Shown here piece by piece: positions 2,695 through 11,588 of a stretch of DNA of 11,858 bases. Each line of letters begins with the position of its first letter. The first letter of the stretch is position 1. The position numbers and the translations under genes are program-made. Below the pieces are notes generated by a model. The model was given only the letters and a program-made list of their open reading frames with translations, made no database searches and was not told the origin of the DNA. The DNA is from Nocardia sp. (GTDB taxonomy: Bacteria > Actinomycetota > Actinomycetes > Mycobacteriales > Mycobacteriaceae), in the NCBI GenBank assembly GCA_013361595.1, contig JABFXT010000081.1:1-11858 (forward strand). Direction: 5' to 3'.

Positions 2695-2700
2695 GATGCA

Positions 2701-2706
2701 CTCCTG
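2701..2706 (-). promoter_or_regulatory. Ribosome binding site that sets the MFS start
   Basis: CTCCTG on the plus strand reads CAGGAG on the minus strand, six bases before the ATG at 2694. It decides between that ATG and the longer in-frame TTG start at 2712, which has no such site and would lie inside the first operator. Confidence 0.75.
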
Positions 2707-2711
2707 ACTCA

Positions 2712-2731
2712 AGTACGAGTTTTCTCGAACA
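2712..2731. promoter_or_regulatory. Operator copy 1 (nearest the MFS gene)
   Basis: AGTACGA-N6-TCGAACA. The left arm is identical to those of copies 2 and 3; the right arm matches the perfect complement at 5 of 7 positions. It directly abuts copy 2 and is the weakest of the three. Confidence 0.55.
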
Positions 2732-2751
2732 AGTACGAACAGAGTCGAACT
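2732..2751. promoter_or_regulatory. Operator copy 2 (central)
   Basis: AGTACGA-N6-TCGAACT. The right arm matches the perfect complement at 6 of 7 positions. The site overlaps the candidate -10 box of the MFS promoter, so a bound repressor would block transcription of the exporter. Confidence 0.65.
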
Positions 2752-2777
2752 GTAGCATCAAGTACGATAATTGTCGT
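2749..2777 (-). promoter_or_regulatory. Candidate promoter of the MFS gene
   Basis: On the minus strand ACGACA (2777-2772, four of six matches to TTGACA) is followed after 17 bases by TACAGT (2754-2749, fitting TANNNT). Transcription would start near 2742, leaving a leader of about 48 bases. Both boxes lie in operator copies 3 and 2. This is pattern-based only. Confidence 0.4.
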
Positions 2778-2780
2778 ACT
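2761..2780. promoter_or_regulatory. Operator copy 3 (perfect palindrome, nearest the ArsR gene)
   Basis: AGTACGA-N6-TCGTACT is a perfect 7+7 inverted repeat, and two central base pairs are also symmetric. This is the size and form expected for an ArsR-family dimer. It covers the candidate -10 box of the regulator gene and the candidate -35 box of the MFS gene, so one bound dimer could shut off both genes. Confidence 0.75.
2766..2771 (+). promoter_or_regulatory. Candidate -10 box of the ArsR-type regulator gene
   Basis: GATAAT matches TATAAT at five of six positions and sits in the centre of operator copy 3, so the regulator would repress its own synthesis. No good -35 box is seen 16-18 bases upstream. 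Confidence 0.45.
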
Positions 2781-2801
2781 GAACAACAGCCGAGGAGAGC
2801 C

Positions 2802-3179
2802 GTGCCGGACACCACTACCCGCCGGGGCGAGACAGCCGCATCCGGCGAACTACTGCCCGAGCCCACACGTGCGGAAATGCGCCTGGAAACCGTGCTGGGC
2901 GCACTCAGCGACCCGCTGCGCCTGAGCATTGTGCGCGCTTACTACCTCGACTCGGGTGGCGTACCGCAGGCCTGTGGCTGGTTCGAGATCGACCGGCCGA
3001 AGTCGACGCGGACCCACCACTGGCGGGTACTGCGCGAGTCGGGACTGATCCGGCAGTGGCAGTACGGCCTGGAGCGCCGCAATGTGGTCCGGGTCGACGA
3101 TCTGAACGCGCGCTTCCCGGGACTGCTGGATCTGGTCGCGAACTGGGAACCGCCGCCGAGCCGCCCTACTGCCGGGTAG
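2802..3179 (+). CDS. ArsR-type winged-helix repressor
   Basis: This is a 125-residue DNA-binding protein of the ArsR/SmtB winged-helix fold. LGALSDPLRLSIVRAYY (32-48) is the family's first helices, STRTHHWRVLRESGLI (68-83) the recognition helix and following turn, and IRQWQYGLERRNVVRV (83-98) the wing. The DDLNARFPGLLDLV tail is common in a group of actinobacterial ArsR proteins found next to transporters. The classical metal site (ELCVCDL in the alpha3 helix) is missing; the only Cys is C58 in QACGWF, so metal sensing is unlikely and a small organic inducer is more plausible. The start is GTG at 2802, with GAGGAG at 2792-2797. It is divergent from the MFS exporter and probably controls both itself and the exporter through the three palindromes between them. 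Confidence 0.9.
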   Translation: MPDTTTRRGETAASGELLPEPTRAEMRLETVLGALSDPLRLSIVRAYYLDSGGVPQACGWFEIDRPKSTRTHHWRVLRESGLIRQWQYGLERRNVVRVDDLNARFPGLLDLVANWEPPPSRPTAG

Positions 3180-3186
3180 CTTTTAT

Positions 3187-3207
3187 GTAACCCTTCTTTT
3201 CTGTTAC
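3187..3207. promoter_or_regulatory. Inverted repeat GTAAC-N11-GTTAC, possible operator
   Basis: The two perfect 5-bp arms are centred 16 bp apart in an AT-richer patch upstream of the oxidation operon. The right arm overlaps the place where a -35 box would lie for the TATGAT box at 3227. The arm spacing suits a TetR- or GntR-like dimer. No such regulator gene lies in the window, so the partner is unknown. Confidence 0.4.
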
Positions 3208-3226
3208 TCATCGTCCCACTTATGTG

Positions 3227-3232
3227 TATGAT
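3227..3232 (+). promoter_or_regulatory. -10 box for the oxidation operon
   Basis: TATGAT matches TATAAT at five of six positions and lies in the only AT-rich part of the gap before the PF10118 gene. Transcription would start near 3239, giving a leader of about 60 bases that contains the strong AGGAGG at 3291-3296. The -35 region (TACTCA or TTACTC) is weak, suggesting an activator-dependent or regulated promoter. Confidence 0.5.
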
Positions 3233-3300
3233 CGCGTCTGCCGGTGAATTGCCGCCGCGACCTCGTCGCGCGCGGCCCTGGTGACGATCGAGGAGGATCG

Positions 3301-4203
3301 ATGAGGTTGTTCGACACCGCCGCCCCCGACCGGGCGACCGATCCGGGAGACGTCGCGTTGAACGCTCGCGACGTGCGCTTCGACTGGGCGGATATCCCGC
3401 TGCACTGGATGGCCGCCGAACCCATCGCCTCCCATGTGATGAACTCGCTCAACCTCCTGCTGCCCGAGGGCGAACGCAGCTTCCTCACCACCTTCGGTGA
3501 GGCGCTCCCCTTCGTCCGGGACGCGAAACTACGTGAGGACATGCTCGGTTTCATCGGCCAGGAGTCGATGCACGCCGAAACCCACGCCGGCTCCCACGAC
3601 ATGCTGCTCACCGCCAACGGAATAGACCCGCGGCCCTTTCTCCAGCACGCGGAATACCTCTTCCGCAAAACCGTCGGCCCCCGACAGGGCACCGGTACCC
3701 GGGCCGGCCGGCAGCAATTGGTGGACCGGCTCGGGGTCATCGCTTCCCTGGAGCACTTCTTCGCGTTCCTGGGCGATTGGGTACTCAACAGTGAACTGGA
3801 GAAGTTCGACGCCGACCCGCGCATGCTCGACCTGTACCGCTGGCACGGGGCCGAAGAGGTGGAACACCGCAATGTGGCCCACGACGTCGCCGAATACTTC
3901 GGGGTGGGTTATTTCCGGCGCGGCGCGTTGATGCTGCTGGTCTTCCCGTCGTTTCTGGTGTTGCTCGTCCGCGGTACCAAATACCTGGTGCGCCGGGATC
4001 CGTCGCTGCCCGACCTGGGCTATCCGCGACTGCTGCTGAAGATCTTCGGCGCCATGCGCCGGGGCGCGTTACCGGGAATTCCGGCGCTGCTGATCAGCGC
4101 ACTGTCGACATTCCGGCCGGGATACAGTCCCGAATCGGTCGGGTCCACCGCCCAGGCCATCGCCTACCTGGCACAGTCACCGGCCGCGCGGGCGGCGTCG
4201 TGA
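3301..4203 (+). CDS. PF10118 'metal-dependent hydrolase', probable ferritin-like di-iron enzyme
   Basis: This is a 300-residue protein of the PF10118 (COG3687-like) family, usually labelled metal-dependent hydrolase. The visible ligand pattern is that of a ferritin-like four-helix di-iron protein: E56 or E58 in PEGERS, E88xxH91 in GQESMHAETH, E151 in SLEHFF, and E186xxH189 in WHGAEEVEHRNVAHD. This gives two half-sites, each with a Glu plus an ExxH motif. Residues about 207-225 (RRGALMLLVFPSFLVLLVRG) are a hydrophobic stretch that could anchor the protein in or on the membrane. The ATG at 3301 follows AGGAGG by four bases; an earlier in-frame ATG at 3244 lacks such a site. It is first in the operon and its stop overlaps the start of a 2Fe-2S reductase (GTGA). 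I infer an oxygen-activating di-iron enzyme acting on a hydrophobic substrate, fed by that reductase. The family is sure; the reaction is not. Confidence 0.88.
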   Translation: MRLFDTAAPDRATDPGDVALNARDVRFDWADIPLHWMAAEPIASHVMNSLNLLLPEGERSFLTTFGEALPFVRDAKLREDMLGFIGQESMHAETHAGSHDMLLTANGIDPRPFLQHAEYLFRKTVGPRQGTGTRAGRQQLVDRLGVIASLEHFFAFLGDWVLNSELEKFDADPRMLDLYRWHGAEEVEHRNVAHDVAEYFGVGYFRRGALMLLVFPSFLVLLVRGTKYLVRRDPSLPDLGYPRLLLKIFGAMRRGALPGIPALLISALSTFRPGYSPESVGSTAQAIAYLAQSPAARAAS

Positions 4204-5318
4204 CCGTCGCGGATCCGCGACCGGCGCAGGCGATCCCGCTGCCACCCGATCTGTACGGGGGGAAGCACGGCGACCGCACGCTGCGCCTGCTCGACGCGAT
4301 GGTGAACGCGCGGATGCGCTGGACCGCGTTCACCAACCGGCGCGATGTGGCACCGCGCGCGGACGACCGCCGGATCCGCGTCCGTGTCGTCGAGCGACAG
4401 ATGCGAGCGCACGACAACGATGTGGTGAGCCTGCGACTGGCCGCCGTGGACGGCCGGCGGCTACCTGCGTGGCGGCCGGGCGCCCATCTCGATCTGGAAC
4501 TGCCCTCGGGCCGGCTGCGCCAGTATTCGCTGTGCGGTGATCCGGCCGATACCCGGACCTATCGGATCGCGGTGCGCCGTATTCCGGACGGTGGCGGCGG
4601 ATCGAACGAAATACATCGGGAGATCACGGTGGGCTCCGCGCTGGTGGTCCGGGGCCCGCGCAACGCGTTCCCGTTCGCGGTGCCCGGCCACGGATCACCG
4701 GCCACCCGGCTGCGTTTCGTGGCCGGCGGGATCGGTATCACCCCGATCCTGCCCATGCTGCGATCGGCCGAATCGCTCGGCGTCGAATGGACCATGCTCT
4801 ACACCGGCCGGGCCCGGGACACCCTTCCCTTCCTGACCGAAGTGGAACGCTTCGGCGACCGGGTCACCGTGCGCACCGACGACCGGGACGGACTCCCGAC
4901 CGGCGCCGAACTCGTGCACGGAGTCCGCCCGGGAACCGCGGTGTACTGTTGCGGCCCGGCGCCGATGGTCGGGGCGGTCGCCGCCGCCGTACGCGATATA
5001 CCCGGGGTGGAACTGCATTCCGAACGGTTCTCGGCACCACCGGTGGTCGATGGAATGCCCTTCGAGATCGAACTGGCCCGCAGCGGTGACGTTCTGCGCG
5101 TCCCGGCCGACAGATCCGCCCTGGATGTGTTGCTGGCACACCGGCCCGACCAACCGTACTCGTGCCGCCAGGGTTTCTGCCGCACCTGCAAGGTCCGGGT
5201 GCTGGCCGGCTCCCCCGACCACCGCGATTCCGTCCTGTCCCCCGCCGAGCGCGCCGACGGCGATCTGCTGGCGTGTGTATCGCGTTGTGCGGGTGGGCGT
5301 CTGGTACTCGACCTCTAG
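4200..5318 (+). CDS. PDR/VanB-type ferredoxin-NAD(P)H reductase with C-terminal 2Fe-2S domain
   Basis: This is a 372-residue electron-transfer protein with the phthalate dioxygenase reductase layout. A flavin-binding barrel comes first, with RQYSLCGDP at 107-115. An NAD(P)H-binding domain follows, with GGIGITPILPML at 176-187 and YCCGPAPMV at 249-257. A plant-type 2Fe-2S domain is last, with Cys ligands C322, C327, C330 (CRQGFCRTC) and C359 (LLACVSRC). It passes electrons from NAD(P)H through flavin and the iron-sulfur cluster to an oxygenase. About 55 residues precede the flavin domain and include a predicted helix (TLRLLDAMVNARMRWTAF); classic PDR reductases lack this and it may dock the partner. 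The GTG start overlaps the TGA of the PF10118 gene by 4 bp, so the two are translationally coupled and probably made in equal amounts. No Rieske-type oxygenase is nearby, which leaves the PF10118 protein as the most likely partner. Confidence 0.93.
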   Translation: MTVADPRPAQAIPLPPDLYGGKHGDRTLRLLDAMVNARMRWTAFTNRRDVAPRADDRRIRVRVVERQMRAHDNDVVSLRLAAVDGRRLPAWRPGAHLDLELPSGRLRQYSLCGDPADTRTYRIAVRRIPDGGGGSNEIHREITVGSALVVRGPRNAFPFAVPGHGSPATRLRFVAGGIGITPILPMLRSAESLGVEWTMLYTGRARDTLPFLTEVERFGDRVTVRTDDRDGLPTGAELVHGVRPGTAVYCCGPAPMVGAVAAAVRDIPGVELHSERFSAPPVVDGMPFEIELARSGDVLRVPADRSALDVLLAHRPDQPYSCRQGFCRTCKVRVLAGSPDHRDSVLSPAERADGDLLACVSRCAGGRLVLDL

Positions 5319-5342
5319 ATCCGCAAGCATCGAGGAGTAAGC

Positions 5343-6341
5343 GTGACCGAATCCGACCACGAACTCACCGCGACCCGGCGCACGGTCCGCAGCGGCGACT
5401 TCGACCTCGCGGTATACGAATACGGTGACACGGCCGCCGAAACCGTCGTCCTGGTGCACGGCTGGCCCGATACGAACCATCTGTGGCACGGCGTGATCCC
5501 GCTGCTGGCCCGGAACTTCCATGTGGTCGCCTACGACACTCGCGGACACGGCGCTTCGACCCGGACCGGCCGGGTCGCCGATTTCCGGCTCGGTGAACTG
5601 GCCGCGGACTTCTTCGCGATCGCCGACGCGGTGAGCCCCGGGCGGCCGGTGCACGTCCTGGCCCACGACTGGGGTTCGGTACAGGTCTGGGAGGCCGTCT
5701 GCGAGCCGCAGGCGGTCGAGCGGATCGCCTCGTTCACCTCGGTATCCGGCCCCAATCTCGACCATCTGGGCAAATGGGTTCGCGACCGGCTCGGCCGGCC
5801 CGGTCCGCGCAATATCTGGCAGCCGTTCACCCAGTTGCTCTCCTCGGCCTACACCGGGTTCTTCATGACCCCGGGCCTGCCGCGCTGGGTGTTCGGGCTG
5901 CTCGCCACCGAACAACGCTGGCGCCGGGTCATCCAGATCATGAACGAGACCGCGCCCTCGACGATCTTCTTCGCCCCGACCTTGAAGCGGGATATGGTCG
6001 ACGGACTGCTCATCTACCGCGCGAATATCTTCGCGCATCTGCTCAACCCCCGGGAACGCACCACCGACGTACCGGTCCAGCTCATCGTGGCGGGACGCGA
6101 TATCGCGGTCCGGCCCGCCGGATACGACGATACGGCGCGCTGGGTCTCACGGGTGTGGCGCCGCGATGTACCGGCCGGGCACTGGATGCCGTTCTCCCAT
6201 CCCGAATTGCTGGCCACCGCGACGACCGAATTCGTGAACGCCCTGCGCCGGGGAGACGTCGCCACGGGCGTCACCCAGCGGACCGCCGGTGGCGAGCCCG
6301 CGCGCCGGTTGCGCGCGGTCCGGCCCACGGGCACGGACTGA
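5343..6341 (+). CDS. EphD-like alpha/beta hydrolase (epoxide hydrolase type), stand-alone
   Basis: This 332-residue alpha/beta-hydrolase closely resembles, from memory, the N-terminal domain of mycobacterial EphD. Shared features are HGWPD at 39-43 (oxyanion hole), VHVLAHDWGS at 103-112, SFTSVSGP at 130-137 and a DVPVQLIVAGRDI..RPAGYDDTARWV..VWRRD..AGHW region. The likely triad is D109 (nucleophile in HDWG), D253 (GRDI) and H280 (AGHW). An Asp nucleophile with HGWP is typical of epoxide hydrolases and haloalkane dehalogenases, not Ser esterases. A cap domain fits about 140-235. In EphD a C-terminal short-chain dehydrogenase domain follows; here the protein ends after a basic tail of about 30 residues and no SDR is nearby. 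The start is GTG, with GAGGAG at 5332-5337. It lies 24 bp after the reductase gene in the same direction, so it is likely in the operon. Substrate unknown; a lipid epoxide is a reasonable guess. Confidence 0.88.
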   Translation: MTESDHELTATRRTVRSGDFDLAVYEYGDTAAETVVLVHGWPDTNHLWHGVIPLLARNFHVVAYDTRGHGASTRTGRVADFRLGELAADFFAIADAVSPGRPVHVLAHDWGSVQVWEAVCEPQAVERIASFTSVSGPNLDHLGKWVRDRLGRPGPRNIWQPFTQLLSSAYTGFFMTPGLPRWVFGLLATEQRWRRVIQIMNETAPSTIFFAPTLKRDMVDGLLIYRANIFAHLLNPRERTTDVPVQLIVAGRDIAVRPAGYDDTARWVSRVWRRDVPAGHWMPFSHPELLATATTEFVNALRRGDVATGVTQRTAGGEPARRLRAVRPTGTD

Positions 6342-6389
6342 GATCCGCGGCGGGAGCATTCGCGCGAGGCGGCTCGGCTCACGAACCGG

Positions 6390-7379
6390 TCACGATTCGG
6401 CCGGCGGCGGGGCGGGCTCCGGGTGGGCACGACGGAAACGCTCACCCCACGCCCGGATGTGCTCGGCCAGTTCCGGGGGTTGCAGAACCCGGAAGTCGGC
6501 GCCGAGAGATCCCAGTGACATGGTGGGCCAGTCCAGGGAGTCGGTGGTCATGAATACCCGGCAGTGTCCGGTATCGATCTCTTCCACCGTGCCCCACCGC
6601 CCCAATCGCTGCCGGACGAACTCGGCCGGGGCGTCGACGAGTGCCTCGATCCGGTGCAGATGCGGCATATTGTCCACCCCGGACCGGACGAATTCCGCGG
6701 CGTCGGCGGTGGGCAGCTCCCGGGGACGGAAGCGCGATCCGTCACCTGCCGGACCGGTGAGCCGGTCGATCCGGAAACTACGCCAATCGTGGCGGGTCAG
6801 ATCGAACGCCACCAGGTACCAGCGTCTACCCAGCGATACCAGACGATGGGGTTCGACGTGGCGCTCGCTGCGGCGACCGTCCGCGGCGGTGTAGGTGAAA
6901 CGCAATCGTTCATCGTCACGGCAGGCCAGGGCGACCGCGGTGAGTACCGCCGGATCCGGACCCACGCCCGGGCGCCCGCCACCCCAGTCCGCGGGTACCG
7001 TCATGGCCCGGATCGCGTCCACCCGCTTCCGCAGCCGCGGCGGCATCACCTGCACCACTTTCGCCAGTGCGCGCACCGAGGATTCAGCCACGCCCTCGAC
7101 CAAGCCTTGCATCGCGAACTGAAGCCCGACCACGAGCGCCACGGCCTCGTCGTCGTCGACCATCAGCGGGGGCAGCGCCGCCCCGGCCGCCAGCTGATAG
7201 CCGCCGTCGACACCGCGCTGGGCCTCCACCGGGTACCCGAGTTCCCGGAGGCGGTCGATATCGCGGCGCAGGGTCCGCGGCGACACCTTCAGCCGGGCGG
7301 CCAGCTCGTTGCCGGGCCAGTATTTATGGGTCTGCAGCAGCGACAGCAGGCGCAATGTCCGGGTGCTCGTATTGGCCAT
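6390..7379 (-). CDS. YafY/PafC-type HTH-WYL transcriptional regulator
   Basis: This is a 329-residue regulator. A DeoR-like helix-turn-helix occupies about residues 6-50 (ELAARLKVSPRTLRRDIDRL), followed by the GYPVEAQRGVDGGYQLAAG wing typical of the YafY group. The WYL domain lies at about 143-212 with RRWYLVAFDL (W187-Y188-L189) and SFRIDRL. A WCX C-terminal extension lies at about 240-315. WYL domains bind ligands, often nucleic-acid or nucleotide-like, and the family ranges from DNA-damage regulators to one-gene local controllers. Length and order are normal and no truncation is seen. The ATG at 7379 directly precedes the HTH; there is no Shine-Dalgarno. The gene converges on the EphD-like gene with a 48-bp gap, so it is not part of that operon. 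An inverted repeat 23 bp upstream may be an autoregulatory site. The target genes are unknown. Confidence 0.92.
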   Translation of the reverse strand: MANTSTRTLRLLSLLQTHKYWPGNELAARLKVSPRTLRRDIDRLRELGYPVEAQRGVDGGYQLAAGAALPPLMVDDDEAVALVVGLQFAMQGLVEGVAESSVRALAKVVQVMPPRLRKRVDAIRAMTVPADWGGGRPGVGPDPAVLTAVALACRDDERLRFTYTAADGRRSERHVEPHRLVSLGRRWYLVAFDLTRHDWRSFRIDRLTGPAGDGSRFRPRELPTADAAEFVRSGVDNMPHLHRIEALVDAPAEFVRQRLGRWGTVEEIDTGHCRVFMTTDSLDWPTMSLGSLGADFRVLQPPELAEHIRAWGERFRRAHPEPAPPPAES

Positions 7380-8560: not shown

Positions 8561-10438
8561 TCATCCGGCCGCCAGCACCTCCAGAACCTGCTCTCCGTAA
8601 CGTGCCAGCTTGTTCTCCCCGACACCGTTCACCGTACCGAGCGCACTCAGATCGGCGGGCTTACGCGCGGCGATATCGCGCAGGGTCGCGTCGTGGAATA
8701 CCACGTAGGCGGGAACACCCTGTTCCTTGGCAGTTTCGGCCCGCCACTGGCGCAGCTTCTCGAACAGCGAAGTATCGGCGGGGTCGAGATCGACAGGCGC
8801 GGATCTACCGGATTTCGCACTGCGGGCCGCACGAGAGGGCGTGGGCCGTTCGGGTTCGCGGCGCAACCGGACGGTCCGGCCTTCGAAGAGCACTGCCTCA
8901 CTGGCCTCGGTGAGGGTGAGCACTCCGTAATCCCCGTGGACGGCGAGCAGGCCCTGGGCCAGTAATTGACGAGTCACACCGCGCCATTGGGTATCGCGCA
9001 GATCGGTGCCGACGCCGAACACACTGAGTTCGTGGTGGTCGTACTGCTGCACCTTCTGATTCTGCTTCCCGAGCAGGATATCGATGAGGTGACCGGCGCC
9101 GAAGCTCTGGCCGCGCTCCCGTTTCAGCCGCAGAACGGCCGACAACAGTTTCTGCGCCGCGACGGTGCCGTCCCAGGATTCGGGCGGATTCAGGCAGGTA
9201 TCGCAGTTCCCGCACGGCTGCGGCGGCTGACCGAAATAGGCGAGCAACTGGGCGCGCCGGCAGTCGACCGTTTCACACAGGGCGAGCATCGCGTCGAGGT
9301 GCAGCTGCAACTGGCGGCGGTGGGCGGCATCGCCGTCGGAGGTCTCGATGAGTTTGCGCTGCTGCACCACATCCTGCAGGCCGTAGACCATCCACGCCGT
9401 GGAGGCCTGTCCGTCCCGGCCGGCACGTCCGGTTTCCTGGTAGTAGCCCTCGACGGATTTGGGCAGGTCGAGATGGGCGACGAAACGGACATCGGGTTTA
9501 TCGATACCCATCCCGAACGCGATGGTGGCCACGACCACCAGACCGTCCTCGCGCAGGAAGCGCGCCTGGTTCTCGGCACGGGTCCGATGATCCAGGCCGG
9601 CGTGGTAAGGGACCGCCCGAATACCGTTCTCGGTGAGGAAGGCGGCGGTCTTCTCCACCGAGTTGCGGGACAGGCAGTAGACGATTCCGGCGTCGCCGGG
9701 ATGTTCGGCACGCAGGAAGTCCAGCAGTTGGCGATCGGGCCGGTTCTTCGGTTCGACGCGGTACTGGATATTGGGCCGGTCGAAACTGGCCACGAACCGC
9801 CGGGCCTGCCCCAGATCCAGCCGGGTGATGATCTCGTCGCGGGTCTTCTCGGTCGCGGTGGCGGTGAGCGCGATGCGGGGCACCTCGGGCCAGCGTTCGT
9901 GCAACATGGACAAGGCCAGATAGTCGGGCCGGAAATCGTGGCCCCACTGCGATACGCAGTGCGCCTCGTCGATCGCGAACAGCGCGATGCGGCCGCGGTC
10001 GAGCAACTGCGCTGTGGATTCCATCCGCAACCGCTCGGGCGCCAGGTACAGCAGATCGAGTTCACCGGCCACGAACTGCGCTTCCACCGCCCGCCGTTCG
10101 TCCGGGAACTGGGTGGAATTGAGGAAGCCGGCCCGGACGCCGAGCGCGCTGAGCGCGTCCACCTGGTCCTGCATGAGTGCGATCAGCGGGGAGACCACGA
10201 TCCCGACACCGTCGCGGACCAGCGCGGGAATCTGGTAGCACAGCGATTTGCCGCCGCCCGTGGGCATGAGCACCAGGGCGTCGCCACCGCCGATCACCTG
10301 GTCGACGATGGCGCGCTGTTCTCCCCGGAAACTCTCGTAACCGAACACCCGGCTCAGAACCCGCTGGGCCGCATCGATTTCGGCATCCGGCCGGTCAGCG
10401 GGCACGATCGGGGCTTCGGGGGATTCCACGCGGCCCAT
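8561..10438 (-). CDS. recQ: ATP-dependent DNA helicase RecQ
   Basis: This is a 625-residue 3'-5' DNA helicase of the RecQ family, close in size to E. coli RecQ (about 610). In order it has motif 0 (FGYESFRGEQ, 32-41), Walker A (MPTGGGKS, 58-65), the DEAH box (AIDEAHCVSQWGHDFRPDY, 155-173), LTATAT (191-196), motif VI (QETGRAGRDG, 334-343), the RQC zinc site (C393, C409, C412, C415), a winged helix at about 425-520, and a C-terminal HRDC domain at about 555-625. All key residues are present, so it should be active in recombination and fork repair. The ATG at 10438 has no good ribosome site; a GTG at 10429 has AGGA eight bases upstream and may be the true start, giving 622 residues. The frame is open further upstream to 10774, but that part is non-homologous and overlaps the divergent propeller gene. 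No TCGAAC-N4-GTTCGA SOS box is seen upstream. Confidence 0.96.
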   Translation of the reverse strand: MGRVESPEAPIVPADRPDAEIDAAQRVLSRVFGYESFRGEQRAIVDQVIGGGDALVLMPTGGGKSLCYQIPALVRDGVGIVVSPLIALMQDQVDALSALGVRAGFLNSTQFPDERRAVEAQFVAGELDLLYLAPERLRMESTAQLLDRGRIALFAIDEAHCVSQWGHDFRPDYLALSMLHERWPEVPRIALTATATEKTRDEIITRLDLGQARRFVASFDRPNIQYRVEPKNRPDRQLLDFLRAEHPGDAGIVYCLSRNSVEKTAAFLTENGIRAVPYHAGLDHRTRAENQARFLREDGLVVVATIAFGMGIDKPDVRFVAHLDLPKSVEGYYQETGRAGRDGQASTAWMVYGLQDVVQQRKLIETSDGDAAHRRQLQLHLDAMLALCETVDCRRAQLLAYFGQPPQPCGNCDTCLNPPESWDGTVAAQKLLSAVLRLKRERGQSFGAGHLIDILLGKQNQKVQQYDHHELSVFGVGTDLRDTQWRGVTRQLLAQGLLAVHGDYGVLTLTEASEAVLFEGRTVRLRREPERPTPSRAARSAKSGRSAPVDLDPADTSLFEKLRQWRAETAKEQGVPAYVVFHDATLRDIAARKPADLSALGTVNGVGENKLARYGEQVLEVLAAG

Positions 10439-10509
10439 CCTACGAGCCCGCGCGGACAGCCGGCGGGGCCGTCGGCGACCGGGCCGGGACCGGTCCATAT
10501 CTGCGCACA

Positions 10510-10518
10510 TGTGGACAA
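10510..10518 (-). promoter_or_regulatory. Single perfect DnaA-box 9-mer upstream of recQ
   Basis: The minus strand reads TTGTCCACA, the preferred DnaA box of mycobacteria and streptomycetes. It lies 72 bp before the recQ start. Only one copy is seen, so it is not an origin; it could be a DnaA control site or chance. Confidence 0.3.
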
Positions 10519-10567
10519 CCCGAGGGGACGGTGATGTCCGGTGACCGCCCGCGCCCCGTCCGGCCGT

Positions 10568-10602
10568 CCGCACCGGATCACCGCCGAACCGCACCGGATC
10601 AC
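10568..10602. repeat. 14-bp direct repeat with 21-bp period, possible activator site
   Basis: CCGCACCGGATCAC occurs at 10568-10581 and again, identical, at 10589-10602. The 21-bp period is two helical turns, so two bound subunits would face the same side of the DNA. The second copy ends one base before the TAGGTT box of the propeller gene, where response regulators and activators bind. Confidence 0.5.
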
Positions 10603-10603
10603 T

Positions 10604-10609
10604 TAGGTT
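10604..10609 (+). promoter_or_regulatory. Possible -10 box for leaderless transcription of the propeller gene
   Basis: TAGGTT fits TANNNT and ends 7 bases before the ATG at 10617. The start codon has no Shine-Dalgarno, in line with a leaderless mRNA. The -35 region is GC-rich and poor; the direct repeat occupies it, which fits activator-dependent transcription. Confidence 0.4.
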
Positions 10610-10616
10610 GTCGGAT

Positions 10617-11588
10617 ATGGCATCCAGAACACGAGCACGCGCCCGGCGGGCGCTGTTCGCCGCGGTGGCGGTAACGGCGGCCTGCGTGGGGGCGGCGCCC
10701 GCGCAGGCACAGGCCTTCCCGGCGATGTGCGCGGACGGCTGGGAGACGACCACGATCGTCGACGGCGTCGGCAACCTGGAGAATCTGGATTCCGACGGCG
10801 CGGGCGGTTTCTACGTCACCGGTATCGTCGACGGCTACCTCGGCCACGTCTCCGCCGACGGGACACTCGAGAAGCTGGTCACCGGGCTGGAACATCCGGC
10901 CGGCGTCCGGGTGGCCGGGCGCTCGGTGTACTACCTGACCGGTGACGGGCTGACCGACCCCCCGGGCACGCTACAGCGCTACGACCTCGACACCGGCGCG
11001 GTGACCGTACTCCGTACCGGGCTCAACGGCCCGAACGGACTGCTGCTGCTCCCCGACGGCGACCTGCTGATCAGCACGATCGGTGTACTGCGCGCGCCGA
11101 CCGGGATCGCCAGGTACCGGCCCTCGACCGGGGAGTTCACCGAATCGTGGTCGCCGGTACCGCTCACCAACGGTCTGGCCCTGGCTCCCGACGGCGCGTC
11201 GATCTACACCGGGAACCTGACCATGCGGATCTTCCGGGTCCCGCTGAACGCCCCCGCCGACGCACAGGTCGTCGCCGGTCCCCCGGATCTGCTCGCGGTC
11301 CCCGACGATATGGAGGCCACCCGCGACGGTGACCTGTACGTCGCCGACCACGGAGTCGGCGCGGTCTACCGCGTGGACCCGGCGACCGGATCGGGCTGCG
11401 CGATCGTGACCGGCCTGATCAAAAGGCCCGACCCGATCCGGATGCCGCCCGACGGCACGACCTCGGTGCGCATCGCCCGCGACGGGGATTCCTGGGCCCT
11501 GTTCGTCACCGCGATGGACGGCGCCCTGCGACGCCTCCGCCCGCCGCCCGGGCTCGATCTCACCCCGGCCGACAGCACGCGCCGATAA
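10617..11588 (+). CDS. Secreted SMP-30/gluconolactonase-like beta-propeller protein
   Basis: This 323-residue protein has a Sec-type signal peptide: a basic start (ASRTRARARR), a hydrophobic stretch (ALFAAVAVTAACVGAA) and an AxA cleavage region in PAQAQA near residues 29-33. The mature part is a six-bladed propeller of the SMP-30/gluconolactonase/LRE-like type, with repeated 'DG.L.x(V/I)' blades (LLLPDGDLLIST, LALAPDGASIYTG, EATRDGDLYVADHG). Candidate metal ligands by family analogy are E56 (LENLDSDG), N in GPNGLLLL near 141, N in LTNGLAL near 186, and D in VPDDMEA near 231. C38 and the Cys in GSGCAIV near 261 could form a disulfide outside the cell. It could be a lactonase or esterase, or only a binding propeller; the substrate is unknown. 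The start is the ATG at 10617 rather than the in-frame TTG three codons earlier. It is divergent from recQ; no functional tie to it is seen. Confidence 0.87.
   Translation: MASRTRARARRALFAAVAVTAACVGAAPAQAQAFPAMCADGWETTTIVDGVGNLENLDSDGAGGFYVTGIVDGYLGHVSADGTLEKLVTGLEHPAGVRVAGRSVYYLTGDGLTDPPGTLQRYDLDTGAVTVLRTGLNGPNGLLLLPDGDLLISTIGVLRAPTGIARYRPSTGEFTESWSPVPLTNGLALAPDGASIYTGNLTMRIFRVPLNAPADAQVVAGPPDLLAVPDDMEATRDGDLYVADHGVGAVYRVDPATGSGCAIVTGLIKRPDPIRMPPDGTTSVRIARDGDSWALFVTAMDGALRRLRPPPGLDLTPADSTRR

Follow-up and report, generated by a model that had tools for sequence, protein, structure and literature searches.

A PF10118 protein, a PDR-type reductase and an EphD-like hydrolase encoded by a Nocardia operon: a candidate two-component di-iron oxygenase with a product-processing enzyme

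Organization of the operon

The window analyzed here, a stretch of 11,858 nucleotides from Nocardia sp. (contig JABFXT010000081.1 of assembly GCA_013361595.1), contains at positions 3301-6341 three open reading frames (ORFs) on the same (+) strand, which encode a protein of the family PF10118, a PDR-type reductase, and an epoxide-hydrolase-like protein. An original prediction, made from the DNA sequence, had described an operon whose first two genes are translationally coupled by a 4-bp overlap. This arrangement was confirmed, the two genes sharing the sequence GTGA. The features of the operon are as follows (basis of each assignment in brackets):

3291..3296, + strand: likely ribosome-binding site of gene 1, AGGAGG (sequence reading)
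3301..4203, + strand: gene 1, PF10118 protein of 300 amino acids from the ATG at 3301, proposed di-iron oxygenase component (Pfam, AlphaFold2 model, fold matches)
4200..4203, + strand: GTGA, 4-bp overlap shared by the gene 2 start and the gene 1 stop (sequence reading)
4200..5318, + strand: gene 2, PDR/VanB-type reductase of 372 amino acids with a GTG start (Fer2; 2pia and 6laa; motifs)
5332..5337, + strand: likely ribosome-binding site of gene 3, GAGGAG (sequence reading)
5343..6341, + strand: gene 3, EphD-like alpha/beta hydrolase of 332 amino acids without SDR half (domain matches, conserved residues)

Predicted fold and metal ligands of the PF10118 protein

Gene 1 matched PF10118 over nearly the whole profile (Pfam E = 1.9e-64, profile positions 2-245 of 247), and its closest relatives carry the database name "metal-dependent hydrolase". 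The AlphaFold2 model of the protein is all-helical (mean pLDDT 92.3), with a four-helix bundle core consisting of helices 41-71, 75-106, 134-163, and 173-199. Its top structural matches were mostly ferritin-like di-metal proteins, including ribonucleotide reductase (RNR) R2, R2lox, desaturase, ADO, and CmlI types, with no Foldseek match at E < 0.001. The original prediction had pointed out two Glu plus ExxH half-sites in gene 1, as in oxygen-activating ferritin-like proteins. Six of the residues concerned (E58, E88, H91, E151, E186, and H189) were found to be invariant in 79 aligned sequences, including distant members of the family, and were also conserved in the 78 sequences of alignment A1, whereas 21 of 54 class I sequences have Ala in place of E56 (class I regions being those that score >200 against the A1 profile, and class II the other regions of the survey described below). 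The six proposed ligands lie at matching levels on the four helices of the model, and from these helix positions they would converge at one site. The predicted structure is thus ferritin-like and would bring together the residues named originally except for E56, which drops out of the proposed site.

3472..3474, + strand: codon of E58, proposed metal ligand on helix 1 (41-71; invariant in 79 sequences and in the 78 of A1)
3562..3573, + strand: E88-x2-H91, proposed metal ligands on helix 2 (75-106; alignments, AlphaFold2 model)
3751..3753, + strand: codon of E151, proposed metal ligand on helix 3 (134-163; alignments, AlphaFold2 model)
3856..3867, + strand: E186-x2-H189, proposed metal ligands on helix 4 (173-199, with a DSSP break at 189; alignments, AlphaFold2 model)
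3583-3585, 3844-3846, 3853-3855, and 3862-3864, + strand: codons of H95, H182, E185, and E188 (invariant in 79 sequences)
3922..3978, + strand: residues 208-226, a strongly hydrophobic stretch within a long helix (19-residue Kyte-Doolittle mean 1.91)

The additional residues H95, H182, E185, and E188 are invariant throughout the 79 aligned sequences as well. Judged from the helix order, H95 and H182 are located one helical turn off on the same side and could make up a second shell around the metals. The motif H182-x3-E186-x2-H189 resembles the metal-site pattern of heme-oxygenase-like (HDO) proteins, and an HDO-type site was therefore considered; TENA-type chains accounted for 3 of the 50 Foldseek matches listed, which were dominated by R2-type chains. 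The hydrophobic stretch is widespread in the family, a 19-residue window of at least 1.6 on the Kyte-Doolittle scale being present in 58 of 78 relatives.

Sequence searches of the PDB with gene 1 alone and with the A1 profile retrieved no match at E ≤ 10. Profile comparisons by hhalign with R2 proteins (13 sequences), weak PF00268 relatives as candidate R2lox proteins (three sequences, or four with L250), and PF03405 acyl-ACP desaturases (28 sequences) gave no significant result. Gene 1 appears to represent a separate family, placed here by its predicted fold and ligand order, with profile relatedness tried against these three sets only.

The reductase and its linkage to PF10118

Gene 2 contains a Fer2 domain (Pfam E = 4.9e-14) together with weak matches to NAD_binding_1 and FAD_binding_6. 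Its best solved relatives are of the PDR type (6laa, 2.6e-62; 2pia, 7.3e-46, aligned over residues 55-372), and their domain order was recovered, with flavin and NAD domains (RQYS at 107, GGIGITP at 176) followed by a C-terminal 2Fe-2S domain:

5163..5276, + strand: 2Fe-2S cysteines 322, 327, 330, and 359 of gene 2 (motif C-x4-C-x2-C plus a fourth Cys)

The early description of gene 2 as a complete NAD(P)H-flavin-2Fe-2S reductase was borne out by the presence of all motifs. In agreement with the original prediction, the Pfam scan of ten window proteins revealed no other oxygenase partner for the reductase; hydroxylase subunits of multicomponent monooxygenases or an effector/coupling protein were not found in these ten proteins either.

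The association of PF10118 with reductases was surveyed in 80 named loci (the best 80 of 575 confirmed) and in another 59 regions, which were selected by hand among the matches listed in whole-genome searches and form the second set. Reductase and hydrolase genes were counted by direct searches of open frames, independently of gene calling; the gene caller misses some reductases that the direct search finds (for example in L110). A reductase ORF was located downstream of PF10118 on the same strand in 79 of the 80 named loci, in one of them (L079) split in two pieces; the sole locus without it was that of Segniliparus (L096). An in-frame overlap of the four bases NTGA at the PF10118/reductase junction occurs in 57 of 80 loci with reductase, that of the window included. 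This association far exceeds chance. In the second set the linkage depended on the class, a downstream reductase being found in 30 of 35 class I regions vs. 1 of 24 class II regions (Fisher p = 2.6e-10, uncorrected for relatedness). The class II regions (L003, L025, L177, L178, and others) retain all six ligands. Among 101 of the 108 listed same-strand neighbors of class I genes, Fer2 was the most common Pfam family (n = 28), followed by Abhydrolase_1 (n = 15), and parts of multicomponent monooxygenases were absent from the 25 most common families listed; for class II, Fer2 was found in 2 of 41 neighbors. The distances of PF10118 and reductase correlate at 0.94, a value obtained with no control for the species tree and not used as evidence. 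The class II neighbors also included one AurF-type N-oxygenase and one second PF10118 protein.

PF10118 is common in the lineage of the window, being present in 162 of 201 sampled genomes of its family and in all 59 sampled from its genus (the source genome included). The source genome (908 contigs totaling 5.18 Mb, with 78% completeness) carries a second PF10118 gene on contig C667, which is likewise followed by a reductase ORF on the same strand. ORFs in the opposite direction at this second locus had, as read by us, a TetR-like and an SRPBCC-like appearance.

PF10118-reductase fusions

A search with both window proteins joined as query revealed single proteins containing PF10118 and reductase domains in 20 of the 120 matches listed. 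One of these (P0307, named Streptomyces ambofaciens) has an Arg/Pro-rich middle part that we read as frameshift-like and was excluded, leaving 19. The six ligands and the C-x4-C-x2-C motif are retained in all 20 apparent fusions, and GGIGITP in 19 of them. On the genome level, one continuous PF10118-reductase frame was identified in 11 of 297 genomes of one family, all in a single genus, which protein names suggest to be Streptacidiphilus. These frames are free of stops, ten of them spanning residue 1-5 to 615 and one 47-615, and 10 of the 11 fused genes are immediately preceded by an EphD-like ORF. The fusions are the most telling evidence that the reductase is a true partner of PF10118.

The EphD-like hydrolase

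Gene 3 yielded hydrolase domain matches only (Abhydrolase_1 in Pfam). It aligned to positions 2-304 of 578 of the NCBIfam model PRK05855 "SDR family oxidoreductase", under the model cut-off; the label "EphD-like" is based on the described domain architecture of EphD. The Asp-nucleophile signature of epoxide hydrolases, originally noted in gene 3, was corroborated by a complete residue set: across 67 proteins (aligned in 68 rows, as the window protein is entered twice), conservation reaches 97% or more at HGxP 39-42, D109, Y170, Y225, D253, and H280, and the Asp of the HDWG motif aligns with 5ng7 and EphA. We take these residues to be the Asp nucleophile, the Asp and His of the triad, and the two lid tyrosines characteristic of epoxide hydrolases. 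The set is that expected of an epoxide hydrolase, and hydrolysis of an epoxide is the activity predicted from sequence for gene 3. Most relatives (51 of 67) are longer than 500 amino acids, and hydrolase and SDR domains were both present in each of five such long proteins that were scanned; the proteins of gene 3 and its six nearest loci comprise 305-332 amino acids, and gene 3 has no C-terminal half.

An EphD-like ORF near PF10118 (same strand, within 3.5 kb, >150 bits) was detected in 66 of the 80 named loci, 42 times downstream and 24 times upstream. Where all three genes were called (64 loci), the orders were PF10118-reductase-hydrolase (n = 42) and hydrolase-PF10118-reductase (n = 22); PF10118-hydrolase-reductase occurred in two survey loci. 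On a Dietzia plasmid, a two-domain EphD-like protein, PF10118, and a PDR/VanB reductase are encoded consecutively, and in a Burkholderia record the gene immediately before PF10118 encodes a two-domain EphD-like protein, while no nearby reductase was found. An EphD-like neighbor is thus present in the majority of the named loci, but by the criteria used such a neighbor is absent from 14 of these 80 and from 20 of the 35 class I survey loci.

Thirteen of the 80 named loci (L039, L040, L042, L044, and nine more; by Pfam for L039) have a wax-ester-synthase/DGAT-type gene no more than 6 kb from PF10118. In the three loci detailed it lies on the opposite strand, approximately 1.4 kb upstream of PF10118. 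These neighbors hint at a lipid setting.

Proposed pathway and alternative explanations

Genes 1 and 2 very probably constitute a reductase-fed di-metal redox enzyme, and its identification as a reductase-fed di-iron oxygenase is well supported by computation through the predicted ferritin-like fold, the invariant ligands, and the linked or fused reductase. PF10118 is read as a probable oxygenase because its class I branch is regularly accompanied by a reductase of its own, in some cases within a single polypeptide, and often lies beside a gene for an epoxide-hydrolase-like enzyme. In the proposed pathway, NAD(P)H would reduce the flavin of gene 2, whose 2Fe-2S domain would relay the electrons to gene 1. 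A di-iron (or Mn/Fe) center there would activate O2 and oxidize a lipophilic, probably fatty-acyl substrate. In the lineage of the window, though less surely, an epoxide would be formed at a C=C bond and opened by gene 3 via Asp109. Where relatives possess both domains of the hydrolase, the attached SDR domain would further oxidize the product.

The evidence tilts slightly toward the operon as a whole encoding a di-iron oxygenase of two components that is driven by NAD(P)H, together with a product-processing enzyme. Lipid double-bond epoxidation appears to be the best reading of the third gene; given a reductase-fed di-metal enzyme, the chances that an epoxide is handed to gene 3 are even or marginally better. 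The oxygenase-reductase core of the oxidation pathway originally envisaged is well supported computationally, whereas the epoxide step, although backed by the recurrent linkage in several gene orders and the conserved epoxide-hydrolase residues, does not extend to the entire family. The wider proposal that class I PF10118 proteins are di-iron epoxygenases that draw on NAD(P)H, act on lipids of the membrane or envelope, and feed EphD-type hydrolases, with the fusions as self-sufficient forms, is tentative. An epoxide role cannot be general for PF10118, because of the loci without an EphD-like neighbor in both sets. Class II members mostly have no adjacent reductase, and none was found next to the Acinetobacter and Pseudoalteromonas members examined.

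The same absence of EphD-like genes from 20 of 35 class I survey loci would also suit the same di-iron enzyme and reductase acting in acyl-chain desaturation or hydroxylation, with the EphD-like protein working elsewhere or via its SDR half; its substrate would then be another epoxide or over-oxidation products, and the SDR half would matter in most lineages. In line with this, acyl-ACP desaturases and further non-epoxidizing enzymes are among the fold matches, the PF10118 gene on C667 has a reductase and no EphD-like neighbor in the 3.8 kb seen, and 7 of the 80 named loci have FMO-like genes at a distance of up to 6 kb, which would fit a route via alcohol and ketone. However, the EphD-like gene recurs in several orders and also beside the fused gene, and gene 3 of the window has retained its hydrolase residues despite the missing SDR half. 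Desaturation or hydroxylation is the main rival reading, although a rather unlikely one.

Proteins of ferritin-like fold include some that handle peroxide or iron, and such proteins can use reductases. Gene 1 could accordingly dispose of O2, peroxide, or NO or handle metals, with the reductase keeping the metals reduced and gene 3 serving in detoxification, and up to 12 PF10118 matches per genome could be seen in this light. This explanation is quite improbable, as the listed fold matches are of the R2, oxidase, and oxygenase types and a lipid substrate better fits the hydrophobic helix and the EphD-like (66/80) and wax-ester-synthase-type (13/80) neighbors. Least probable by far is that gene 1 is a metal-dependent hydrolase with the reductase as an uninvolved operon neighbor, which agrees with the Pfam and database names and with the listing of PF10118 among candidate proteases in a correlation screen for lanthipeptide proteases (PMC8960859), possibly itself an effect of the family name, but conflicts with best fold matches to di-metal redox proteins and is hard to reconcile with a reductase co-operonic with and fused to class I PF10118, since a hydrolase needs no electrons.

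A search of the open-access literature, with the broader listings judged by titles and abstract openings, found no assignment of a di-iron oxygenase role, or of any function, to PF10118; the lanthipeptide-protease screen was the sole paper found to name the family. It contained no mention of COG3687 and five other names of the family, nor of "VanB family oxidoreductase" together with "metal-dependent hydrolase", and a search aimed at fusions of a ferritin-like di-iron candidate to a PDR-type reductase turned up none among the papers listed. The current name of PF10118 would point workers in the wrong direction. If class I PF10118 proteins are di-iron oxygenases, a lipid-oxidation step widespread in these actinobacteria can be put to the test, a candidate source of epoxides is at hand for EphD-type hydrolases, and the fused form offers chemistry a ready-made one-protein oxygenase.

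Comparison with known systems

With its predicted bundle and the ligand order E...ExxH...E...ExxH, gene 1 resembles ferritin-like di-metal enzymes such as RNR R2, R2lox, acyl-ACP desaturase, ADO, and CmlI. It differs in showing no detectable profile similarity to the R2, weak PF00268, and PF03405 sets, in the extra invariant residues His95, His182, Glu185, and Glu188, and in having its own PDR-type reductase, sometimes in the same polypeptide. AlkB differs from the PF10118 fusions in its fold, that of an integral membrane protein, and in its electron-transfer parts. This non-heme di-iron enzyme also occurs fused to ferredoxin and ferredoxin reductase (PMC8918992), and the PF10118 fusion similarly joins a proposed non-heme di-iron enzyme to its electron donor. 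The self-sufficient P450s of the CYP116B type carry a PDR-type reductase joined C-terminally (PMC7260179). The PF10118 fusions have the same type of reductase in the same position (6laa being matched by gene 2), but their oxygenase part is PF10118 and non-heme.

Mycobacterial EphD is described as combining an epoxide hydrolase with an SDR domain; it cleaves 9,10-cis-epoxystearic acid, and its overproduction lowers the level of epoxymycolates (PMC7998700). Most gene 3 relatives at this place share the two-domain architecture, whereas gene 3 of the window, which has no C-terminal SDR domain, is EphD-like in its hydrolase half only. PF10118 as the source of the epoxide in epoxymycolates was considered, and no direct link was found in the literature searched. 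The alkane-desaturation operon of Rhodococcus KSM-B-3M (desaturase and ferredoxin reductase) was rejected as a parallel, its enzyme being described as an acyl-CoA desaturase.

Other features of the window

The operon is preceded by a small regulator-like gene and surrounded by genes of various families:

99-974, - strand: MmyB-like regulator (Pfam)
1062-1448, + strand: SnoaL-like protein (Pfam)
1477-2712, - strand: MFS transporter (Pfam)
2802..3179, + strand: small ArsR-like helix-turn-helix gene upstream of gene 1 (HTH_20 and HTH_metalloreg matches below cut-off)
6390-7379, - strand: WYL-domain regulator (Pfam)
8561-10774, - strand: long ORF outside the Pfam scan, a RecQ-type helicase by appearance (our sequence reading)
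10608-11588, + strand: SMP-30/gluconolactonase-like protein (Pfam)

A scan of positions 2700-6600 for promoters and terminators detected no signal exceeding chance. The ArsR-like gene, whose family matches are weak, is a possible local regulator of the operon; five of the 80 named loci, each a close relative, also have a related gene upstream. At other loci (L094, L102, L106, L111, and L144, comprising Streptomyces-like loci and Burkholderia), a gene for an M24-type metallopeptidase lies beside the EphD-like and PF10118 genes on the same strand, and the Dietzia set is likewise preceded by a gene annotated as M24.

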